DNA from: a virus
Reading direction: 5' to 3' (one strand)
Virus record (IMG/VR): IMGVR_UViG_3300020405_000038
Span: 1-20,238 of that record
Length of the DNA: 20,238 bases
Made by a program: the position numbers and the translations under genes. Below are positions 1,451-12,965 of the stretch, one piece after another. The notes beneath the pieces were generated by a model. The model searched no databases and was not told the origin of the DNA. It saw only the letters and a list, made by a program, of their open reading frames with translations. Position 1 is the first letter of the stretch. Each line of letters starts with the position of its first letter.

Positions 1451-2680
1451 ATGAAAAAATTTTCAACATATCTAGCTGAAGCCAAGAATACTCATATGGA
1501 ACATATTGAGGATAATATTCTTAATGGTGGTGTGAATGGTGCGAGAGAGTCACTAAACTTTCTACGTGCTATTAGAGATATGTTGGCTGGACGTTCAAAG
1601 TCAAGTGTAAATATATCTGTTAAGTGGGACGGAGCTCCTGCTATTTTTTGCGGTACTGATCCATCTGATGGTAAGTTCTTTGTAGCAAAGAAAGGTATAT
1701 TTAACAAAAATCCAAAAGTATATAAAACAACACAAGAAGTTAAAGCAGATACATCTGGTGATTTAAGTGATAAACTAGTGAAAGCACTTAGATTATTACC
1801 AGCTTTAGATATCAAAGGTGTTGTGCAAGGTGATTTTCTCTTCTCTAAAAAAGATTTGAAAGTACAATCAATTGAAGGTGAAAAGTATTTGACATTTCAC
1901 CCAAATACAATTGTCTATGCAGTACCAGCTGGCACACCACTTGCTAGTAAAATGATGAAATCAGAGATTGGTATAGTTTGGCATACAAGTTATAGTGGCA
2001 AAGATTTTGAAAGTATGACAGCCTCTTTTGGTAAAAATATTGCAAATAAATTTAAGCCATCGAAGAGTGTATGGAGTGTAGATGCTGAATATCAAGATGC
2101 ATCTGGTACTGCAACTATGACAGATAAAAAAACAGAAGAAGTAACTAAAATGTTATCTGATGCTGGTAGAATATTTCAGAAATTAGATGCTAAGAGTTTA
2201 AATGGTATTTCTGATAACGAAGAATTACTCATGAGAATGAAAACATTCTTAAACAAAAAAGTACGTGCTGGTAAAAGAATTACTAATGTAAAGAAAACTG
2301 TGCAAGATATGATTACGTATTTTCATGATTATTATAAGATTGAAAGTGATAAAAGAAAATCAGCTAAAGGTAAAGCTGGTGTGACAGAACGTAAAAAAGA
2401 AGTAATGAAATACTTCTCAAATACTAACAGAAGAAATCTAGAAAACATTTTAAATCTAATGAATGCTTTTGTAGATGTAAAATTAATCTTGATTGGCCAA
2501 ATGAGCAAAACTGCGAAGCTTAGAACATTTTTATCAACTACTAATGGGTTTCAAGTAACTGGTGAAGAGGGCTATGTTGCTATTGATAAAGTCGGTAAAA
2601 ATGCAGTAAAGTTAATTGATAGAATGGAGTTTAGTAGAGCCAATTTCTCAGATGAGGTTCTTAAAGGTTGGCAGAAATAG
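1451..2680 (+). CDS. DUF6267-like phage protein with KxDG nucleotidyltransferase motif (409 aa)
   Basis: This is a long phage protein that I assign to the family called DUF6267, from memory of its SVKWDGAPAIFCG segment. That segment holds K58-W-D-G61, the lysine motif (KxDG) used by DNA/RNA ligases and capping enzymes to bind AMP or GMP covalently. Strand-like VVQGDFLF (124-131) and TIVYAV (153-158) could correspond to later motifs of that fold, but I cannot align them securely. The C-terminal half (from about 210) is helical and lysine-rich. The N-terminus MKKFSTYLAEA resembles the capsid-targeting leader of T4 internal proteins (MKTYQEFIAEA in IPIII), with an LAE-A sequence where the prohead protease would cut. 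Role unproven: a ligase-like enzyme, possibly packaged in the head. No clear ribosome-binding site precedes the ATG. Confidence 0.8.
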   Translation: MKKFSTYLAEAKNTHMEHIEDNILNGGVNGARESLNFLRAIRDMLAGRSKSSVNISVKWDGAPAIFCGTDPSDGKFFVAKKGIFNKNPKVYKTTQEVKADTSGDLSDKLVKALRLLPALDIKGVVQGDFLFSKKDLKVQSIEGEKYLTFHPNTIVYAVPAGTPLASKMMKSEIGIVWHTSYSGKDFESMTASFGKNIANKFKPSKSVWSVDAEYQDASGTATMTDKKTEEVTKMLSDAGRIFQKLDAKSLNGISDNEELLMRMKTFLNKKVRAGKRITNVKKTVQDMITYFHDYYKIESDKRKSAKGKAGVTERKKEVMKYFSNTNRRNLENILNLMNAFVDVKLILIGQMSKTAKLRTFLSTTNGFQVTGEEGYVAIDKVGKNAVKLIDRMEFSRANFSDEVLKGWQK

Positions 2681-2853
2681 TATTCGTATTAGCTACGATA
2701 GTTGCCGAAGGAACTATTCAAGTAAAAGAATTTAACTGGAAACGACAATGTGAACTTGCATCAAAGGGTAGAATGATGTATACTCCTAATATTAAATATG
2801 TATGTATTGAAAGGATAGATGATGAAAGCTGGAAAAGTTTGGGGAACAACTGA
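2668..2853 (+). CDS. Small hypothetical protein (61 aa), TTG start
   Basis: The protein has 61 residues and begins MAEIVFVLATIVAEGTIQVK, then a Lys/Arg-rich middle and VCIERIDDESW near the end. It overlaps the 3' end of the 409-aa gene by 13 bases and the cupin gene by about 30. The start is a TTG with GAGG (2654-2657) ten bases upstream, an acceptable ribosome-binding site; no ATG is available at the N-terminal side. The N-terminal hydrophobic stretch is too short and charged to be a sure membrane helix and more likely forms a beta strand. Function unknown. The open frame filling the gap exactly supports a real gene. Confidence 0.6.
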   Translation: MAEIVFVLATIVAEGTIQVKEFNWKRQCELASKGRMMYTPNIKYVCIERIDDESWKSLGNN

Positions 2854-3166
2854 GTTAATTGAAGCCAACGGTGCTTTAGAATTTCACAAAATAGAAATGA
2901 TAAAAGGTGGTGTTTGTAGCAAACATCTACACAGATACAAATGGAATGGTTTCTTTGTTGATTCTGGTTCTATGCTTATAAGAGTGTGGCAAAGAGATTA
3001 TGACTTGATTGATGAAACAATATTAAAAGCTGGTGATTATACGAAAGTAAAACCAGGTTTATATCATCAATTCGAATGTCTAACATCTGGTGTAGCATTT
3101 GAATTATATTGGGCAGAATTTAATCATAATGATATAGCGAGGGAAAATGTCGGATTTCTACGATAA
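2822..3166 (+). CDS. Cupin-fold protein, phosphomannose isomerase-like
   Basis: This single-domain cupin has 114 residues. Motif 1 is visible as GGVCSKHLHRYKWNGFFVDSG, with the two His and the downstream residues expected to bind a metal. Motif 2 is GDYTKVKPGLYHQFE, with its His. Such short cupins resemble the C-terminal domain of type II phosphomannose isomerase / GDP-mannose pyrophosphorylase and other sugar-binding cupins. The substrate is unknown. It sits immediately before and overlaps (20 bases) a KDO-8-phosphate synthase gene, which favours a role in sugar-phosphate or lipopolysaccharide chemistry. The ATG at 2822 is chosen because AAGGA (2811-2815) lies six bases upstream; the adjacent ATG at 2819 is the alternative. 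Confidence 0.8.
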   Translation: MKAGKVWGTTELIEANGALEFHKIEMIKGGVCSKHLHRYKWNGFFVDSGSMLIRVWQRDYDLIDETILKAGDYTKVKPGLYHQFECLTSGVAFELYWAEFNHNDIARENVGFLR

Positions 3167-3941
3167 AGCATTTCTCCCAAACAAGATGCCAAGTCTTATT
3201 GCTGGACCATGTGTTTGGGAAAACTGGCCACTTATGTCTAGTATCTGTGAAAAACTAGTTAGAGATACAAATGATTTAGATATCAACTTTATATTTAAAT
3301 GCTCATTTGATAAAGCTAATCGTTCAAGTGTACATGGATATCGTGGTGAGAATGGCTTAGAAGGACTACGAAACATCAAAAAAGAATTTGGTTGTGAAGT
3401 TACAACTGATGTACATGAAGTTTCACAAGTTGATATAGTAGCAAGTGTAGTAGATATAATACAAGTACCAGCTTTATTGTGCAGACAAACAGATTTATTA
3501 AAAGCTTGTGCTGAAACTGGTTTACCTGTCAATGTTAAAAAAGGCCAGTTTTTATCACCACGTGAAATGGAAAATGTAGTAGAGAAGTTAGAATATTACG
3601 GGTGTAAAAAAATTATACTTACAGAACGTGGTACAACATTTGGTTATAACAATCTAGTTGTAGATTTTCGTTCAATAGATATAATGAAAAATTTTCATTA
3701 CCCAGTTTGTATTGATGCTACTCATAGTGTTCAAATGCCAGCTAGTAAAGGTTCTAGCACTGGTGGAAATAGAGAATATGCTGAACTTATGATGAAATGT
3801 GGTTTGGTTTCTGGAGCAGATATTGTGTTTGCAGAAATACACTCGGACCCAGATAATGCACCATGTGATGGGCCAAATATGCTAAAACTTACAGACTTAA
3901 ACAGATTTTTACTTGACATGAAGAAATATTACATATTATAA
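3147..3941 (+). CDS. kdsA: 3-deoxy-D-manno-octulosonate 8-phosphate synthase (KDO-8-P synthase)
   Basis: The enzyme condenses phosphoenolpyruvate with arabinose 5-phosphate to give KDO-8-phosphate, precursor of the inner-core lipopolysaccharide sugar KDO. The 264-residue protein is close to bacterial length and carries the family signatures KCSFDKANRSS (51-61), TDVHE (87-91), QVPALLCRQTDLL (106-118), LTERGTTFGYNNLVVDFRS (158-176) and DATHSVQ (190-196). C22 (in LIAGPC), H193, E230 and D241 (in PCDGPN) match in identity and closely in spacing the metal ligands C11, H185, E222 and D233 of the Aquifex enzyme. This is therefore the metal-dependent type. It overlaps the cupin gene by 20 bases and has GAGGG just upstream of the ATG. 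In a phage it is an accessory metabolic gene. A DAHP synthase is less likely because the arabinose-phosphate-type signatures are intact. Confidence 0.95.
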   Translation: MSDFYDKAFLPNKMPSLIAGPCVWENWPLMSSICEKLVRDTNDLDINFIFKCSFDKANRSSVHGYRGENGLEGLRNIKKEFGCEVTTDVHEVSQVDIVASVVDIIQVPALLCRQTDLLKACAETGLPVNVKKGQFLSPREMENVVEKLEYYGCKKIILTERGTTFGYNNLVVDFRSIDIMKNFHYPVCIDATHSVQMPASKGSSTGGNREYAELMMKCGLVSGADIVFAEIHSDPDNAPCDGPNMLKLTDLNRFLLDMKKYYIL

Positions 3942-3944
3942 ATA
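3913..3944 (+). promoter_or_regulatory. T4-type late promoter TATAAATA with an upstream TTGACA box
   Basis: TATAAATA at 3937-3944 is the exact T4 late promoter element, recognised in T4 by the gp55 sigma factor. It overlaps the kdsA stop codon and lies about 40 bases before the ATG at 3985. A perfect sigma70 -35 box, TTGACA (3913-3918), lies 18 bases upstream of it, so TATAAA could also act as a -10 for host sigma70. The gene ahead starts with AAGGA (3971-3975), nine bases before its ATG. Boxes are seen; dual use is inferred. Confidence 0.65.
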
Positions 3945-3984
3945 ATACTAAATTAACAGGTGTTAAGTCCAAGGAAAACACACT

Positions 3985-6900
3985 ATGAAAAAATTAGTAT
4001 TTACATTTGGTAGAATGAACCCTCCTACAATTGGGCATGAAAAACTAGCGAATAAGATAAAAGAAGTAGCGAGAAAACAAAATGCAACTCCACGGATCTA
4101 CCTATCCCACTCTCAGAATCCAAAGAAAGATCCCCTCTCATACAACGACAAGTACCGCTTTGCAACGAAAGCCTTCGGTATCGTTAAAAGATCACAATCA
4201 AAGCAAATCTTTCAGATATTACCAGAAATCGAAAAAGAAGGATTCACAGAAATCACAATGGTTGTTGGATCTGATCGTATAAATGAGTTCGATAGAGTTT
4301 TAAAAAAATACAACGGAAAAGATTATAACTTCAACAGTATAAAAACTGTATCATCTGGTGATAGAGATCCAGATGCACAAGGTGTTGAAGGAATGTCTGG
4401 TTCAAAATTGAGACAGACAGCCAAAGATGGCGATGAAAAAACATTTAAAAGTGGCTTAGCATCTAAGCTATCAGATGCAGATAAAAAATCAATTTACAAC
4501 AAAGTTCGTAAAAATTTAAAAGAGGCTGACATGGAATGGACAGAAGAAGATGACATAATTCTTGAACAAGTATTACAAGAATTAGAACTTACTGAACAAG
4601 AAGAAGATGATTTTGCTGAACTAGGTGAACTATATGAATTAAATGAAGTATTAAACTTTCAGCAAAGATTGAAAAAATCTAGATTGTTTAGAAGACTAGC
4701 ACCTAAGATTGCACGTATGAGAAAGATAGCGGCAAAGAAAATGAAAAGTCCCGCTAAACTTTTGAAACTTGCACAAAAAGCGGCAATAAAACTAATTCGA
4801 AAGAAAGTTGCTGGTAAGAAAGGTGCTAACTATGCAAACTTATCACCTGCTGACAAAATGAATGTTGATAGAAAAGTTCAAAGTAAGAAGAGTATGATAT
4901 CTAAAATAGCTAAAAGACTATTACCAAAGGTTAGAAAACAATCAATGGACAGAGTAGCACAAGCTAGAAAGGGTCCACAAAATGCTGAGTACGTACCTGA
5001 AGAGCTTGATGAAAGAAAAGGTACACCTAGAGTACATGCAAAAACATTTTCGAATTTGAATCTAAAGAAAGCAAGAGAACTCATGAGTCCTGCAAAACAT
5101 AGAGAAGACGGGATTCAACGTATAATGAAAGGTATGAATATAAGTAAAGTTAAAGCTACTAAGTATCATGATGATGTCATGAAGTCTTATGGTTTCAAGC
5201 CTGAATCAATAGAAGAGAAGTATGATTTGTATCATAAAGATTTTAGTGGTGCTATGCAACATGCTTATGCATATGCAAAGAAGAAGTTTGGTATGACAGT
5301 TGACAAAGGTGAGATTGATGATAAAGTTGCTACTGGCCCAAGAAAACCAGGTGTTGGTAAAACTAACAGATATTCTTTGAAGACAAATAAAGGTATGTTA
5401 CAAATTCAAGTATATAATAAGGGTGGTGCAAAGCCATATGAATTGAATATGTACAAAGAAGATAAGTCTGTTGTACCACAAGATAGAGATGTAAAAGACG
5501 AACCAGGTTCACAACCAAAAACTTACTACAAAGGTGTTGCTAAAGATAAGAAAGATGATAGATACAGAGCATTTAAGAGGGGTTCTGATAAACATCATGA
5601 CGATCCTTCAGCATATCCAGATAGTCACCCTGGAGATAAAGATGCAAAGACTAAACCAAGTAAGCATACTAAGAAATATCGTGATATGTTTGGTGAAAGT
5701 TTATGGGCAAATATTCATAAGAAAAGAAAAGAAGGCCGCCCAATGCGAAAGCCAGGTAGTAAAGGTGCCCCAACTGATCAAGATTTCAAGAATGCTAGAG
5801 GTGAATCATCTGAAATTGGAGAAGCGATACCTAAAAGCACTATGTATGCCTTAGTTCAGAAAGGTAAAGTAGTCGCAAAAGGCTCTAAGAGCGACATGAT
5901 GAGTAAAAAGAAAAAAGAGGGCGGAACAGTTTATAATGCACCAAGTAAAAAAGTTGGTGATGTTATCAAAGAAACTTACGTTGTAGAAGATGCTGGTGCC
6001 GCATTAAAGAAAAAATCAGAAAAGTCTGGTATACCTGTAGGTATATTGAGAAAAGTTTACAATCGTGGAATGGCCGCATGGAGAACAGGACATCGCCCAG
6101 GTGCTACACAGCAACAATGGGGTATGGCAAGAGTCAATTCTTTTATTACTAAAGGTAGTGGTACATGGGGTAAAGCTGATAAAGATTTAGCCGCGAAAGC
6201 TAGAGGTTCTAAGAAAGAAAGTATTGAAGAAAAAACATACATGCGAACTGATAGTAAGTTAAAGAACTTAAAAGTACCAGTAAAAAGAAAAAATAGAAAT
6301 GATACACTTGCTAAAAAGATAAAAGCACATGGTGATAAAAAAGAAGATGTAAATCTGATGAGAAAAGCAGAACAATCTGGTATTGATATCGATATTATCA
6401 AAGAAGTTTACAACAGAGGTTATGCATCATGGGAATATGATAAACCAAGATGTACACCAGAACAATGGGCTTTTGCGAGAGTTAATTCTTTTATTACACG
6501 TACTGGTGCCACATGGAATGAACACGACTACGACTTAGCAGAGAAAGTAGAAAAGCGAGGTCCATTAGAAATTGGTACAGATAAAATAAATGCTACATAT
6601 AGAAAAGACACACCAGGGCAAACAGATGAAAAGCCCAAGTTAATGAGAGTTCTATCACAAAGAGAAATCAAAGCGGCACATTGTGAAGACTATAATGTTG
6701 ATGATGATTTCTCAGGTAAAATTAAAAAGAGATTTAGAGATTTTGTCAAAGAAAGTGAAGATGAAGGTTGTCCTGTAGATTTATTTGATCACGTTTTAGA
6801 AGAAGCAGAGTATCAAGGTAAGAAAGTTACTTTAAATAATCCAACACGTTCTAGTGATGGTAAGAAAAAGTTTTATGTATATGTAAAGAATGAGAAGGGT

Positions 6901-7071
6901 AATGTAATTAAATTAGGTTTTGGTGATCCAAATATGGAAATCAAAAGAGATGATCCAGCAAGAAGAAAGTCATTTCGTGCAAGACATAATTGCGATAACC
7001 CAGGCCCAAAATATAAAGCTCGATACTGGAGTTGTTACCAGTGGAGAGCAGGTTCTAAAGTAGACAACTAG
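3985..7071 (+). CDS. Large modular phage protein with N-terminal cytidylyltransferase-like domain (1028 aa)
   Basis: Residues 1-178 form a nucleotidyltransferase of the NMNAT/cytidylyltransferase superfamily: FGRMNPPTIGHEKL carries the [T/H]xGH motif (T15-I-G-H18) and GMSGSKLRQ (136-144) the second nucleotide-binding signature. Then come an acidic linker (181-222), a very basic helical segment (226-325), a module with YHKDFSGAMQHAYAYAKKKF (416-435), and SLWANIHKKRKEGRPMRKPG (572-591). Two related repeats follow at 669-740 and 788-858, sharing VYNRGxAxW, QW-x2-ARVNSFIT and a final D-x-DLA; they resemble the DUF5824 module. The C-terminal end (959-1019) has FRARHNCDNPGP and YWSC, also common in marine phage proteins. 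Sequences LKE-A (178-181), IGE-A (611-614) and LEE-A (938-941) resemble T4 prohead protease sites. It is preceded by a late promoter, so a virion or head-assembly role is inferred. Confidence 0.85.
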   Translation: MKKLVFTFGRMNPPTIGHEKLANKIKEVARKQNATPRIYLSHSQNPKKDPLSYNDKYRFATKAFGIVKRSQSKQIFQILPEIEKEGFTEITMVVGSDRINEFDRVLKKYNGKDYNFNSIKTVSSGDRDPDAQGVEGMSGSKLRQTAKDGDEKTFKSGLASKLSDADKKSIYNKVRKNLKEADMEWTEEDDIILEQVLQELELTEQEEDDFAELGELYELNEVLNFQQRLKKSRLFRRLAPKIARMRKIAAKKMKSPAKLLKLAQKAAIKLIRKKVAGKKGANYANLSPADKMNVDRKVQSKKSMISKIAKRLLPKVRKQSMDRVAQARKGPQNAEYVPEELDERKGTPRVHAKTFSNLNLKKARELMSPAKHREDGIQRIMKGMNISKVKATKYHDDVMKSYGFKPESIEEKYDLYHKDFSGAMQHAYAYAKKKFGMTVDKGEIDDKVATGPRKPGVGKTNRYSLKTNKGMLQIQVYNKGGAKPYELNMYKEDKSVVPQDRDVKDEPGSQPKTYYKGVAKDKKDDRYRAFKRGSDKHHDDPSAYPDSHPGDKDAKTKPSKHTKKYRDMFGESLWANIHKKRKEGRPMRKPGSKGAPTDQDFKNARGESSEIGEAIPKSTMYALVQKGKVVAKGSKSDMMSKKKKEGGTVYNAPSKKVGDVIKETYVVEDAGAALKKKSEKSGIPVGILRKVYNRGMAAWRTGHRPGATQQQWGMARVNSFITKGSGTWGKADKDLAAKARGSKKESIEEKTYMRTDSKLKNLKVPVKRKNRNDTLAKKIKAHGDKKEDVNLMRKAEQSGIDIDIIKEVYNRGYASWEYDKPRCTPEQWAFARVNSFITRTGATWNEHDYDLAEKVEKRGPLEIGTDKINATYRKDTPGQTDEKPKLMRVLSQREIKAAHCEDYNVDDDFSGKIKKRFRDFVKESEDEGCPVDLFDHVLEEAEYQGKKVTLNNPTRSSDGKKKFYVYVKNEKGNVIKLGFGDPNMEIKRDDPARRKSFRARHNCDNPGPKYKARYWSCYQWRAGSKVDN
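5989..6558 (+). repeat. Two diverged tandem domain repeats inside the 1028-aa protein
   Basis: Two segments of about 70 residues (5989-6204 and 6346-6558) share KSGI/QSGI, VYNRG-x-A-x-W, QQW/EQW, ARVNSFIT, a G-x-TW pair and D-x-DLA-x-K. They are separated by a lysine-rich linker. Their order and spacing are preserved, so they arose by duplication of one DUF5824-like module, although the nucleotide sequences have diverged. Confidence 0.75.
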
Positions 7072-7080
7072 GAGGAAGAC

Positions 7081-8694
7081 ATGAGTTTAGAAAGTACTAT
7101 TAGAAAAGTGTTGTCTACTAAAGACAACTTACAAGAAGGAGATGCTACAAAAGCGGCTTCTGAAAAAATAAAAAGAGAAAAAGAGTCTGACAAAAGAAAG
7201 CATGACACAATGATGGATCGTGCTAGAAGTCTTGACACTAGAAATAAAAATAATCAAACTGAAGAAATGGATCCAACAAAACATGTTATGAAAAATAAAG
7301 ACACAGGTAAATATTGTGTTTATAATGCTAATAACAAAAAAGTTGCAGAGTTTGATAGCGAAGATGAGGCTAATGCATATGCTAAAAAGAATCATGACAA
7401 GCTAATGCAGAAAGAAGCAGTATCACCAGCACAACAAGCGGCCATAGCTATCTCGAAAAAAGAGAAAGGTGAAAAGCCAAAGAATGAAGAATTAGATGAT
7501 AATGATAAACCTGTTGTTAAGAAAGTTGTTAAGATGCTAAAGAAAGCAAGTAAAGCACATGCAGGACAAGCTGATGATTTAGAAAAATCTATGAGTGAAG
7601 ATTATCTAGATGATATCTTAGAGCAAATTCTAGATGAAGGTTATGAAGCTAAAGTATCAAAGATATTGAATAAGAAAGGTATCGATCATCATTGGAAAAA
7701 TGGTAAAGTTTATGTTGCGAAGAAAGATGTAAAAGCGGCTGAAAAGAAACTTAAAAAGAAAGCAGGCCCTGGTTTGGGTACTGCTGTTCGAATGATACCA
7801 GATATTATCGGTGAAGAAGTGCAGTTTGATTTACACATTCAAGAAGGTGTGTGGCATTATCCAGATGCAAGACAAGTTGCGAAGTTTAAGAAAGCTTTAG
7901 GTAAAAAGTTTATAGTTGGTAAAGATGGTTATCCAGCTAAAGATATAATACCATTTGGTGATGATGAATTGTATGATATGTTAGATGATGCATCTGATAA
8001 TAATCCTAAACAAGATGCACGTCCTATTTTTACAAGATGGATTAATGGAAGAATTAGAGATAACTATGGTGGCTATGGTAAGAAAACTTTAGCTATCGCA
8101 AAACAACTTGGTATTCGAGAGGAAGTAGAAATGAATGAAAATTCAGATGCAAAGAGATATGGTTTATCTCAAAGCTTGGTAGATGCAGTAGCATCAATTA
8201 TAGCTGGTAAAAAACCAACTAATGCTAAAGAAGACAATACTAATGATAAGTCTGATGATGGTGAAGGTTTAGATAAAGTACAACCAAAAGCACTTAAAAA
8301 GAAATTTAAGGATCGTAAAGATAAAGATATTGACAATGATGGTGATGTAGATTCTTCTGACAAATATATGCACAAAAAGAGACAAGCAGTTTCTAAAGCT
8401 ATATCAAAAGATGATGAAAAGTCTGCACCAAAAGCTGATGCAAAAGATGATGCTGATACAAAAGCTGATCCTAAGAAAAAGAAAAAGGGTAATGGTGAGC
8501 CAGTTGATACTAAGCCTACTATGAATGCTGAGAGTGTTCAGAAAGAAGAAATGACTGATGCTCAAATGAAAAAGAGAGAAGAAATAGTCAAAGAACTCAA
8601 AAAGAAATCAGACTATTTCAAAGATAAGTATGGTGAAAAAGCAGATGATGTAATGTATGCAACTGCTACTAAAATGGCAATGAAGAGTGTATAA
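7081..8694 (+). CDS. Modular, highly charged phage protein with calcium-loop motif (537 aa)
   Basis: The protein has no single known domain but is built from short modules I recognise from T4-like marine phage proteins. These are KHVMKNKDTGKYCVYNANNK and on to FDSEDEANAYAKKNHDKL (67-108), SPAQQAAIAISKKEKGEKP (115-133), KILNKKGIDHHWKNGKVYV (194-212), KDKDIDNDGDVDSSDKYMH (413-431) and a C-terminal KKREEIVKELKKK...YATATKMAMK. Residues 416-427 form an EF-hand/dockerin-like loop (D416, D418, D420, G421, D422, D424, D427) that probably binds calcium. Linkers are rich in K, D and E. LQE-G (17-20), LDE-G (184-187) and IQE-G (253-256) look like prohead protease sites. AGGAGG (7070-7075), overlapping the upstream stop, is a strong ribosome-binding site. 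It is co-transcribed with the 1028-aa gene; a virion role is inferred. Confidence 0.82.
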   Translation: MSLESTIRKVLSTKDNLQEGDATKAASEKIKREKESDKRKHDTMMDRARSLDTRNKNNQTEEMDPTKHVMKNKDTGKYCVYNANNKKVAEFDSEDEANAYAKKNHDKLMQKEAVSPAQQAAIAISKKEKGEKPKNEELDDNDKPVVKKVVKMLKKASKAHAGQADDLEKSMSEDYLDDILEQILDEGYEAKVSKILNKKGIDHHWKNGKVYVAKKDVKAAEKKLKKKAGPGLGTAVRMIPDIIGEEVQFDLHIQEGVWHYPDARQVAKFKKALGKKFIVGKDGYPAKDIIPFGDDELYDMLDDASDNNPKQDARPIFTRWINGRIRDNYGGYGKKTLAIAKQLGIREEVEMNENSDAKRYGLSQSLVDAVASIIAGKKPTNAKEDNTNDKSDDGEGLDKVQPKALKKKFKDRKDKDIDNDGDVDSSDKYMHKKRQAVSKAISKDDEKSAPKADAKDDADTKADPKKKKKGNGEPVDTKPTMNAESVQKEEMTDAQMKKREEIVKELKKKSDYFKDKYGEKADDVMYATATKMAMKSV

Positions 8695-10446: not shown

Positions 10447-10842
10447 GTGTATGAAGATTTAACTGATGAAAACTTTATGTTATTTGCGGCAAAATATTAT
10501 GAGAATCCACATTGTACAGATTTGTTAGAATTTCATGATGATTTAAAGCGAATAAGATATTTAAAACGATTGTTTAAAAAGTATGAGCAATCTGGTGAAT
10601 TGAAAGAAAGATTAATACTGAATCACTTATTGGTATTATATAATGTATTTGATAATAGAGCAATGACACGTATATTGGTGTTTAAGCTAGAAGAACAACT
10701 GAAATACTTAAAACCTTTTTTATTATTTCTTAACTACTGGCGAGATGATATAGGGCTAATTAAAGGTAATAAGTTTGTTGATAGTAACATACCTTTAGAT
10801 GATGGAATAGTAAAGTTATTAAGAGATATAAATGGCGAGTAA
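10447..10842 (+). CDS. Conserved T4-like phage protein of unknown function (131 aa), GTG start
   Basis: This all-helical 131-residue protein carries a pattern I recognise from T4-like marine phages: YYENPHCTDLLEFHDDLKR, then LKRLFKKYEQSGELKERL, ILNHLLVLYNVF and LKPFLLFLNYW. I associate it with DUF7207, from memory. It has no signal peptide; the hydrophobic LLFLNYW segment is too short for a membrane helix. No biochemical role is known to me. The GTG at 10447 gives MYEDLTDENFMLF, matching how homologues usually begin; the ribosome-binding site is weak. It overlaps the next gene by 11 bases, and those two families tend to travel together, suggesting a shared virion or assembly role. Confidence 0.75.
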   Translation: MYEDLTDENFMLFAAKYYENPHCTDLLEFHDDLKRIRYLKRLFKKYEQSGELKERLILNHLLVLYNVFDNRAMTRILVFKLEEQLKYLKPFLLFLNYWRDDIGLIKGNKFVDSNIPLDDGIVKLLRDINGE

Positions 10843-11632
10843 AGTAGCAGATTTAATTTTTGTGTATTCTTTTCTGAAGAGATTAGTTACACCATTTAAC
10901 GAAACTAAAGCTTATCAGTTAGGTATAATTGATGAACGTGGTAAGAAGATTCGTAATCCCCAAACGAAAGCAGAGTTGGATTCTTTCAGTACTTTTGAAC
11001 GTCTAGTATTTAATATTAAAAAAATAATTGAAAGATTTCCAGGTGGTAAAAGTAAACTCGCATCATATGCCGCGGCATTATTTTTAATTAAAGAACACAA
11101 TAATCCAAAAGAAGAATATTCTACAAAAGAACTAATAGAAGCAGTGGAGAAAAATATGGGAGATTTAAAAGAAAATCAAATGTCTGAGAAAGAATTTGGT
11201 GATATGTTGTTCGCAAAAGAAACTGCAATCAGAGATGTCTCAGAAGCAATGAAATATAACTTTATGGTTTTAGATAGAGATGGTAGAGTCATGGGCATGA
11301 CTACTGGTGAAAAAGATGCAGAGAGAATGGCAAGAGGAGATAATATTAGAGGACAAACTGGTAGAGCAGTAAAGCTTAGAAGGCCAATGGCTCAAGCAAG
11401 AGGTGACAGATTAATTGGACAATTACCTGCACATAATCTTGGTGAAGATGTACCTGCTAATGCGACTGGTGCCGCTGTTGCTGGAACTGGTGATGATCCT
11501 GTGCATTGGAAAAAACCAGATGCAAGAAAGAAAGAAATGAGAAAGTATCTTGCCGATTACATGAAAAAAAGAAAGAAAAGAGAAGAAGCAAAAAATAAAG
11601 CCCAGATGCGAAAGTTAATGGGACTTGGCTGA
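10832..11632 (+). CDS. Conserved T4-like phage protein, probably virion-associated (266 aa)
   Basis: The N-terminal half is a family I recognise from T4-like marine phages: ADLIFVYSFLKRLVTPF, LGIIDERGKKIRN, STFERLVFNIKKIIERFPGG, SKLASYAAALFLIKEH. The middle (110-190) is less conserved and mixed. The C-terminal part has ANATGAAVAGTGDDPVHWKK, akin to the N-x-AGxG-x-xP spacer seen in relatives, then a very basic coiled tail KEMRKYLADYMKKRKKREEA. No enzyme motif is seen. The basic tail suggests contact with DNA or a scaffold. It starts inside the upstream gene and ends in TGATG, coupling it to the next. Confidence 0.75.
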   Translation: MASKVADLIFVYSFLKRLVTPFNETKAYQLGIIDERGKKIRNPQTKAELDSFSTFERLVFNIKKIIERFPGGKSKLASYAAALFLIKEHNNPKEEYSTKELIEAVEKNMGDLKENQMSEKEFGDMLFAKETAIRDVSEAMKYNFMVLDRDGRVMGMTTGEKDAERMARGDNIRGQTGRAVKLRRPMAQARGDRLIGQLPAHNLGEDVPANATGAAVAGTGDDPVHWKKPDARKKEMRKYLADYMKKRKKREEAKNKAQMRKLMGLG

Positions 11633-12253: not shown

Positions 12254-12628
12254 GTGGCTAGATTATACATTATAATTTTTATTGTTGCCATTCTGGGTAT
12301 TCTAAGTTATGGTGCTTACTACGTATACAATGACATTATGTCTAGAATGGCAACTCTTAGAGATAACAATGCAAAGATGGAAGTAGCAATACAATCTAAA
12401 GATGCAGTTATAAACGAAATTCAACAAAACCTAAATAAACAGATTGAGTTGACACAAAACTTGCAGAGTGGACTATCTAAGATAGAAAAAGAAAACAATG
12501 TTATCAAAGAACAGATAGATAACATTAATATATTAGAAAATAGTATTAATAATACTGATGAAACTGAAAGTACAATAAATGAACAAGTCGATCTTATATT
12601 TGACGGTATTAGTACTGCTACTCAGTAG
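12254..12628 (+). CDS. i-spanin-like inner-membrane protein (124 aa), GTG start
   Basis: One N-terminal membrane helix (about 5-25, YIIIFIVAILGILSYGAYYVY) is followed by a long heptad-rich coiled coil (30-100) exposed to the periplasm. This is the architecture of Rz-type i-spanins, which join an outer-membrane lipoprotein to fuse the two membranes in the last step of lysis. The next gene starts inside this one in another frame and encodes a lipoprotein, as in Rz/Rz1 pairs. The GTG at 12254 is chosen because GGAG (12244-12247) lies six bases upstream. The assignment rests on topology and context, not on sequence identity to a known spanin. Confidence 0.72.
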   Translation: MARLYIIIFIVAILGILSYGAYYVYNDIMSRMATLRDNNAKMEVAIQSKDAVINEIQQNLNKQIELTQNLQSGLSKIEKENNVIKEQIDNINILENSINNTDETESTINEQVDLIFDGISTATQ

Positions 12629-12965
12629 TTGTTCTAGTTTTAAACCAGAAAAAGAAATAGTAACTGTTGAAAAAATAGTTAAACCAACAATAGCTATTGC
12701 TTTGAAGCCTAGTCCAATAGAAATGAAAAATGCAGATGTGTTGGTTATAACAGAGCAAAATTTTGAAGAAGTCGTTGCTAAAGTAAAAGCAAAACAAAAC
12801 GGACAGTTTGTTGTATATGCACTTGATTTGAAATCATTTGAAAACTTAGCTATCAATATGGAACAAATCAAGAGATACATAGAACAGCAAAATGAAGTTA
12901 TTCTTTACTATGAAAGATCAGTAACATGGAAAGAGGGCGAGATACATGAGGAAGTTCTTCCGTAA
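12579..12965 (+). CDS. o-spanin-like outer-membrane lipoprotein (128 aa)
   Basis: MNKSILYLTVLVLLLSSCSS is a lipoprotein signal with lipobox LSSC, so C18 would be lipidated. The mature part starts with a Pro/Lys-containing linker (FKPEKEIVTVEKIVKPTIAI) and then a compact domain with VLVITEQNFEEVVAK, FVVYALDLKSFENLAINM and RYIEQQNEVILYYE. I recognise this domain from lipoproteins of T4-like marine phages. The gene begins 50 bases before the stop of the i-spanin-like gene in another frame, the embedded/overlapping layout known for Rz1. It is longer than classic o-spanins, so the domain may have an extra role. It overlaps the lipase gene by 20 bases. Confidence 0.75.
   Translation: MNKSILYLTVLVLLLSSCSSFKPEKEIVTVEKIVKPTIAIALKPSPIEMKNADVLVITEQNFEEVVAKVKAKQNGQFVVYALDLKSFENLAINMEQIKRYIEQQNEVILYYERSVTWKEGEIHEEVLP

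Follow-up and report, generated by a model that had tools for sequence, protein, structure and literature searches.

Several proteins of bacteriophage T4 are carried inside the head. The internal proteins IPI, IPII and IPIII and the Alt protein share an N-terminal capsid-targeting sequence, or tag, of the layout M..[FY]..[FY][LI].E/A (a slash marks the cut here and below) and are cut by gp21 under the rule L/I-x-E (PMC9026906, PMC3012670, PMC5694885). Residues 4 and 7 of the tag serve targeting and residues 8 and 10 processing (PMC9026906), and Alt is cut at both ends (PMC9026906, PMC3012670, PMC5694885). Here we analyse a complete 20,238-base viral fragment of a T4-like marine phage (IMG/VR record IMGVR_UViG_3300020405_000038, hereafter the window), in which three plus-strand genes encode a 409-residue protein with such a tag (1451-2680) and two long modular proteins of 1028 (3985-7071) and 537 residues (7081-8694) that carry L/I-x-E sites. 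We consider it probable that all three are prohead-core proteins cut by the phage's own gp21-type protease, with the long ones releasing their modules for ejection. As in T4, the cargo would be diverse proteins sharing only the tag. The T4 proteins, however, are single proteins that lose a propeptide, whereas the long proteins of the window are multi-module chains with sites between folded modules, and the families involved (ligase-fold DUF6267, NMNAT-like, DUF5824, phrog_7595) differ from those of T4.

Other described systems resemble this one in part. The inner-head proteins of phiKZ and SPN3US also receive several Glu-specific prohead-protease cuts each (PMC5694885, PMC10052503), but those cuts remove propeptides at the motif S/A/G-x-E or A-x-E, while the cuts proposed here would part folded modules. 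Iyer et al. 2017 (PMC5512222) describe polyvalent proteins, which combine several effector domains in shuffled order and are predicted to be packaged and then injected; their processing is proposed to be the work of internal zincin/assemblin-like domains (common, though not universal). In the available text we found no mention of cyanophages or of the window's modules. The module proteins of the window and its relatives likewise hold at least two effector domains per polypeptide in variable order, but their sites match a separate protease, gp21. The T4-GC190/NMNAT-like virion proteins of cyanophages (PMC3037559, PMC10665884, PMC9602691) belong to the same nucleotidyltransferase family as the first module of the 1028-residue protein, and the S-SM1 and S-CREM2 members are tagged; the accessible parts of these reports annotate them as virion-associated or as possible carry-over, and we found neither a capsid-targeting sequence nor processing mentioned there. 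In a search that left most subscription journals outside its reach, no paper was found that ties T4 capsid targeting to cyanophages or pelagiphages, the one co-mention being of cyanophages in the title of a reference.

Cleavage motifs in the modular proteins

Relatives of the window include Pelagibacter phage HTVC008M, Methylophilales phage Melnitz, phage C48C1 and cyanophages, the majority classed in Kyanoviridae, and the closest contigs are L009 (146,609 bases; 74% identical to the window in the best segment), L010 and L011. A first-pass annotation of the window had proposed that the three proteins are proteolytically matured internal polyproteins, on the basis of seven [LI]xE[AGS] sites, each of which is present at the residue given: LAE10/A in the 409-residue protein, LKE180/A, IGE613/A and LEE940/A in the 1028-residue protein, and LQE19/G, LDE186/G and IQE255/G in the 537-residue protein. 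The comparison with shuffled sequences that it proposed gave an excess and not a chance-level count (7 sites vs 2.67 in composition shuffles, P=0.018; for [LI]xE[AG], 7 vs 1.85, P=0.003; for [LI]xE, 25 vs 12.9, P=0.0006). Taken singly, the 1028-residue protein has 18 [LI]xE against 6.5 expected and the 537-residue protein three [LI]xE[AGS] against 0.75; the count in the 409-residue protein is ordinary (1 vs 0.6), and its LAE10 is notable for its position, at residue 10 in a T4-like tag. By themselves, these counts are modest evidence.

Among 2,524 open reading frames (ORFs) from the loci fetched, 195 are similar to the 1028- or 537-residue proteins; a stricter selection, with redundancy removed, comprises 158 module proteins of related phages. 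When the spacing in [LI]x{k}E[AGS] was varied, the 195 proteins gave 257 matches at k=1 and 95-127 at each other k from 0 to 8. The stricter set holds 215 [LI]xE[AGS] sites. The mirror motif [AGS]Ex[LI] occurs 99 times in it, and shuffling left 99.9±9.7 sites when done locally over 12 residues and 98.3±9.7 when done globally. In the single-domain DUF6267 family the excess is missing (15 sites vs 14 for the mirror). The sites avoid the modules themselves, as only four fall inside module envelopes, which make up 35% of residues, and 211 outside (15.6 and 80.2, respectively, for the control spacings; Fisher P=4e-6). Around the sites, Ala is 2.2-fold enriched at P1' and L, I and V about twofold at P3, which agrees with the T4 gp21 rule L/I-x-E. 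An excess of L/I-x-E in accessible segments, the mark of a gp21 substrate, is what the module proteins show. The L/I-x-E part of the rule used in the first-pass annotation stands; the small residue it expected at P1' is a preference only, with K, R, V and T occurring there as well.

The same distribution appears within the 1028-residue protein, whose AlphaFold2 model (mean predicted local distance difference test, pLDDT, 68.6; predicted template modelling score 0.40) was limited to 31 sequences because fragments of several modules failed to align to it; coverage is deep for the nucleotidyltransferase and phrog_7595 modules only. In the model, folded modules are parted by long stretches of pLDDT <50, and eight domains and seven linkers can be read. 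All seven linkers carry [LI]xE, against an average of 2.7 of seven after linker-wise shuffling (P=0.0005), which bears out the earlier suggestion that sites lie near module edges. The seven sites first listed are real but incomplete as a set, since LNE221, LDE343, IEE411, IKE663, IEE749 and LAE853 also stand at junctions of this protein. The [LI]xE at residues 27, 81, 101 and 807, in folded cores, are probably not cut. We consider processing at the junctions of the 1028- and 537-residue proteins likely.

A matching protease is found in the closest relative, the L009 genome encoding a Peptidase_S77 prohead protease (gp21). Its gp23 has LGE/A in the N-terminal region, where T4 gp23 is cut, and its gp21 itself has four sites where 0.6 are expected. 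Ranking the L009 proteins by their sites gave no clean separation of head proteins (81 sites in the whole genome vs 60-70). In S-CREM2, known kinds of gp21 substrate are flagged: gp22 with 9 sites vs 2.4, gp21 with 5 vs 0.5, and gp23 with LTE56/A. Cleavage could instead occur after infection or through a different protease, for instance by self-processing as for zincin-containing polyvalent proteins, and proteins of that kind with built-in peptidases are reported by Iyer et al. (PMC5512222). This seems highly improbable here, as Pfam and PHROGs searches recognised no peptidase domain in the 1028- or 537-residue proteins and the motif is the same as in the gp23 of the relatives.

Capsid-targeting sequences and virion proteins

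The 409-residue protein belongs to DUF6267 (PF19782, E=1.5e-109) and begins with MKKFSTYLAE (1451-1480), in which residues 4 and 7 are aromatic (F4, Y7), residue 8 is aliphatic (L8) and residue 10 is Glu (E10), with a predicted gp21 cut after E10. This start, followed by A, agrees in residue type with that of T4 ipII/ipIII (MKTYQEFIAE/A, read from NC_000866) at all four mutationally defined positions. It is very likely a real capsid-targeting sequence, and its site is the strongest of the seven. The interior of the family has no raised [LI]xE, so that the N-terminal site alone matters. Here the first-pass reading has to be amended. Its core, gp21-type sites as marks of matured internal head proteins, came through all controls, and it gains separate support from the T4-type tag of the 409-residue protein, the tagged standalone modules of relatives, the gp21 and the gp23 site of L009, and the tagged cytidylyltransferases in virion proteomes of relatives. 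The 409-residue protein, however, is no polyprotein, being one enzyme whose only tag is N-terminal.

As to what this enzyme is, K58-W-D-G, E373-G (EG373-374) and K387 are invariant in an alignment of 46 DUF6267 sequences and presumably represent ligase motifs I, IV and V. The family thus combines motif I (KxDG) and later motifs with a predicted nucleotidyltransferase fold, as do members of the RNA/DNA ligase superfamily. The AlphaFold2 model built from the 46 sequences has a mean pLDDT of 87.4 and falls below 50 in one segment alone, residues 1-14. A VIA-align search with the model placed a Naegleria RNA ligase on top (Z 8.3, root-mean-square deviation 3.8 over 186), T4 RNA ligases 2 and 1 following at Z 7.4, and ligases fill most of the 50 rows listed (RNA ligases at Z 7-8.3), a Z near 8 being borderline by the tool's own note. 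Foldseek gave weak matches, the best being to a DNA ligase at E 0.2, and a profile search of the PDB with DUF6267 found no relative. Motif and modelled fold agree, and we predict a covalent nucleotidyltransferase or ligase within the head.

Tags are not confined to this protein. The pattern M.{1,3}[FY]..[FYW][LIVMT].E occurs at the start of 14/35 DUF6267, 11/158 module and 28/888 other proteins, with a background of 0.08% per interior position. Standalone versions of the modules fused in the long proteins are often tagged in the relatives, as in C48C1, where single genes encode a Lys-rich protein (MLSFKQFVSE/V), a DUF5824 protein (MITFKKYLEE), a phrog_7595 protein (MKKFKQYIDE/G) and a cytidylyltransferase (MIKNFSQYLLE). 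A simple N-terminal scan of HTVC008M gave no matches; its tag-like starts deviate or may use other start codons (MTRYTKTMAE/A, MYNDLLVE/D), and strict patterns therefore under-count tags. Internally, the 158 module proteins contain six matches to a tag profile at a score of at least 12.5, none of them within a module core; the same proteins reversed contain none.

Some tagged proteins have been detected in virions. The published S-CREM2 virion proteome includes the non-structural proteins gp6, gp14 and gp154 (PMC10665884), and we find tags on all three: MKDFDSFLEE on the gp6 SAM hydrolase, MKRFDAFLTE on the gp14 kinase and MKNFSSFLTE/A on the gp154 cytidylyltransferase. Published reports also place S-CREM2 gp154 to gp156 and gp160, from the counterpart of the window's gene cluster, in purified virions (PMC10665884), and T4-GC190 in virions of S-SM1 (PMC3037559); the latter begins MKKFSAFLNE/A. 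With the original pattern, tag and detection are associated in S-CREM2 (3/50 vs 0/166, P about 0.01 by hand count), and a wider tag pattern sought within the 35 N-terminal residues does not separate virion from non-virion proteins (P=0.13).

These data bear on a different view, that the proteins are intracellular enzymes of metabolism or host takeover and not head cargo, the motif being a by-product of Glu-rich linkers. The proteins are indeed rich in Glu and Lys, and their genes are placed between DNA-metabolism genes, not head genes, the counterpart cluster in related phages sitting between a gp41-type helicase and a gp61-type primase. Chance arising from Glu-rich composition is, however, ruled out as the cause of the motif by the spacing control, the mirror motif and the local and within-linker shuffles, the N-terminal tag is far over background, and the T4-GC190 and S-CREM2 proteins just named come from purified virions. 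We regard a purely intracellular role as improbable.

Two observations were made in passing. In C48C1, an earlier in-frame start for the cytidylyltransferase gene (CDS0089, L002:10622-12031) restores the tag MIKNFSQYLLEEEREV together with the beginning of the nucleotidyltransferase domain, and the deposited start seems to lie too far downstream. S-CREM2 gp12 (L168:7704-10313), annotated as Cas9/Csn1 and present in virions, carries a targeting sequence like that of T4 but displaced to residues 17-26 (LRFASFMAE/A), making this CRISPR nuclease-like protein a possible, if unexpected, injected cargo.

A putative polyprotein route into the head

In the mechanism we propose, the three proteins would become part of the prohead core, where the phage's gp21-type protease (Peptidase_S77) would cut them. 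The 409-residue protein would enter by means of its 10-residue tag, to be removed after E10. In the 1028- and 537-residue proteins, disordered linkers would join small folded units, among them an NMNAT-like transferase, a Lys-rich module, two DUF5824 copies and phrog_7595. Cuts by gp21 at the junctions would yield several small proteins per precursor inside the head, and these would leave it together with the DNA on ejection. In marine T4-like phages, such modules would pass by recombination between single-module genes that bear tags and long fusions. For the fusions, we infer cleavage, packaging, ejection and catalytic roles alike. The fullest form of this proposal, to which we lean only slightly, is a true head polyprotein system: each gene would give one precursor, gp21 would cut it between folded domains, the separate mature products would be injected, and recombination at the cleavage sites would shuffle modules between single tagged genes and chains of 1000-1400 residues.

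A number of points weigh against this proposal. We found no virion proteome for any phage with long fusions. The window, being a 20-kb fragment, encodes neither gp21 nor gp23. The 1028- and 537-residue proteins have no N-terminal tag, starting with MKKLVFTFGRMNPP and MSLESTIRKVLSTKDNLQE, and the single internal tag-like segment (residues 915-924 of the former) is absent from L009 and L010. The tag is also missing from many DUF6267 proteins, cyanophage ones included. The motif is in excess, if less strongly, among other ORFs of these loci too (492 vs 408 mirror and 373 shuffled). The association of tags with detection in S-CREM2 is modest, whether by the original pattern or by one widened after seeing the data (5/50 vs 2/166, P=0.008), and the authors of that study caution that non-structural proteins may be CsCl carry-over.

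Targeting might also operate with little processing: cutting would be confined to the N-terminal tag and a small number of sites, the long proteins would remain largely whole within the head or on its surface, and their [LI]xE linkers would dock to the scaffold or a partner. At P1', Val, Thr, Lys or Arg is found in some junctions, and the T4 tag keeps targeting (residues 4 and 7) apart from processing (8 and 10), both of which would suit such an arrangement. Yet the feature enriched in linkers is the processing half of the tag (aliphatic P3, Glu at P1, Ala at P1'), while the aromatic targeting half is rare internally, as the six profile matches show. We therefore think this arrangement unlikely, and prefer gp21 cutting at the junctions.

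If gp21 does process these proteins, tag and cleavage motif would let the injected cargo of marine T4-like phages be read from sequence, and the hypothetical families DUF6267, DUF5824, phrog_7595 and phrog_23027 would gain a function class, that of injected cargo. The recurrent cytidylyltransferases of cyanophage virions would be explained, and the T4 internal-protein system would be widened from single proteins to polyproteins.

Modules, junctions and neighbouring genes

The modules of the window recur in other orders in the loci of related phages, in line with the first-pass annotation. Module 1 of the 1028-residue protein (residues 1-182, 3985-4530; cytidylyltransferase/NMNAT-like, phrog_3041 E=3e-94, PF01467; pLDDT mostly >90) closes with a predicted helix at 164-182, so that residue 180 does mark the end of the predicted nucleotidyltransferase domain, as had been claimed. 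The site LKE180/A (4516-4527) is the same in L009, L010 and L011. It is followed by an acidic segment (4558-4650) with [LI]xE at 194, 199, 204, 215, 218 and 221, the last being LNE221/V before the Lys-rich helical module 2 (residues 222-331, 4648-4977; phrog_23027, 59 matches in the loci). LDE343/R (5005-5016) precedes module 3, within a linker of pLDDT <50 (330-355). IEE411/K (5209-5220) adjoins a segment of pLDDT <50 (407-410) and precedes module 4 (YDLYHKDF...; residues 412-490, 5218-5454; read from the AlphaFold2 model, 18 matches in the loci); relatives have LEE/K, LDE/A and similar at this junction.

IGE613/A (5815-5826) lies within a segment of pLDDT <50 (598-617) before module 7, a small alpha-beta domain seen in the model and recurrent in the loci (residues 614-661, 5824-5967). 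This module is preceded by IGE/A, LGE/A, LDE/M, IDE/M or LDE/A, with upstream linkers that are unrelated among relatives. Three further sites also lie in segments of pLDDT <50: IKE663/T (5965-5976; segment 663-667) before module 8, the first DUF5824 copy (residues 668-744, 5986-6216; PF19141 E=4e-25), IEE749/K (6223-6234; 744-783) before module 9, a second PF19141 stretch read as a DUF5824-like copy with the help of the model (residues 784-841, 6334-6507), and LAE853/K after it (6535-6546; 842-859). The internal targeting-sequence-like segment KRFRDFVKE/S (6727-6756) has a profile score of 13.6, compared with 14.8 for T4 ipIII. LEE940/A (6796-6807) precedes module 10, the phrog_7595 domain (residues 941-1028, 6805-7068; E=2.5e-13), and most relatives have [LIM]xE at this junction. 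That domain is preceded by [LIM]xE in most of its contexts, from 86-residue genes, through MKSYQQWLNE/AEYQGRKV in L013, up to fusions of 1366 residues.

Annotated phage records hold no match to the 537-residue protein, predicted to be a second polyprotein, whose modules N1-N8 recur elsewhere. LQE19/G (7129-7140) is N-terminal, T4 ipI likewise having a site after residue 19. LDE186/G (7630-7641) precedes module N4, with E/G in 5/5 relatives and L, V, F, V or Q at P3, and IQE255/G (7837-7848) precedes module N5, with [LI]xE/G in 5/6 occurrences, one of them standalone (MKSFDQLRLGLKE/G). Of these sites, LQE19 is weakly conserved (ISE/K in L010, VYE in L009). Pfam, PHROGs and PDB sequence searches returned no function for modules 4, 7, N5 or phrog_7595. 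Module N7 (residues 387-443, 8239-8409), among the commonest in the loci (112 matches), has DKDIDNDGDVDSSDKY, which resembles a dockerin/EF-hand calcium loop.

Among the neighbouring genes, small proteins of the cluster (window 10832-11632, L170:28342-29235, L005:10464-10988 and L167:9306-9854) hold a peptide resembling the post-cleavage segment of gp23 (GFTGAAAPEGPVAGYDPLM in S-CREM2 gp160 and GFTGAAAPGGPNAGFDPVM in gp23; LGEDVPANATGAAVAGTGDDP in the window ORF), and perhaps mimic the new N-terminus of the capsid protein. Between the genes for the 409- and 1028-residue proteins (2819-3941) lie a cupin gene and a DAHP-synthetase-I-family gene (PF00793, E=4e-61), the latter perhaps KDO-8-phosphate synthase-like. 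Further on, 12254-12965 has an Rz-like spanin match (phrog_214) and an overlapping ORF with a lipoprotein-like start (MNKSILYLTVLVLLLSSCSS), the two probably forming an inner and outer spanin pair.

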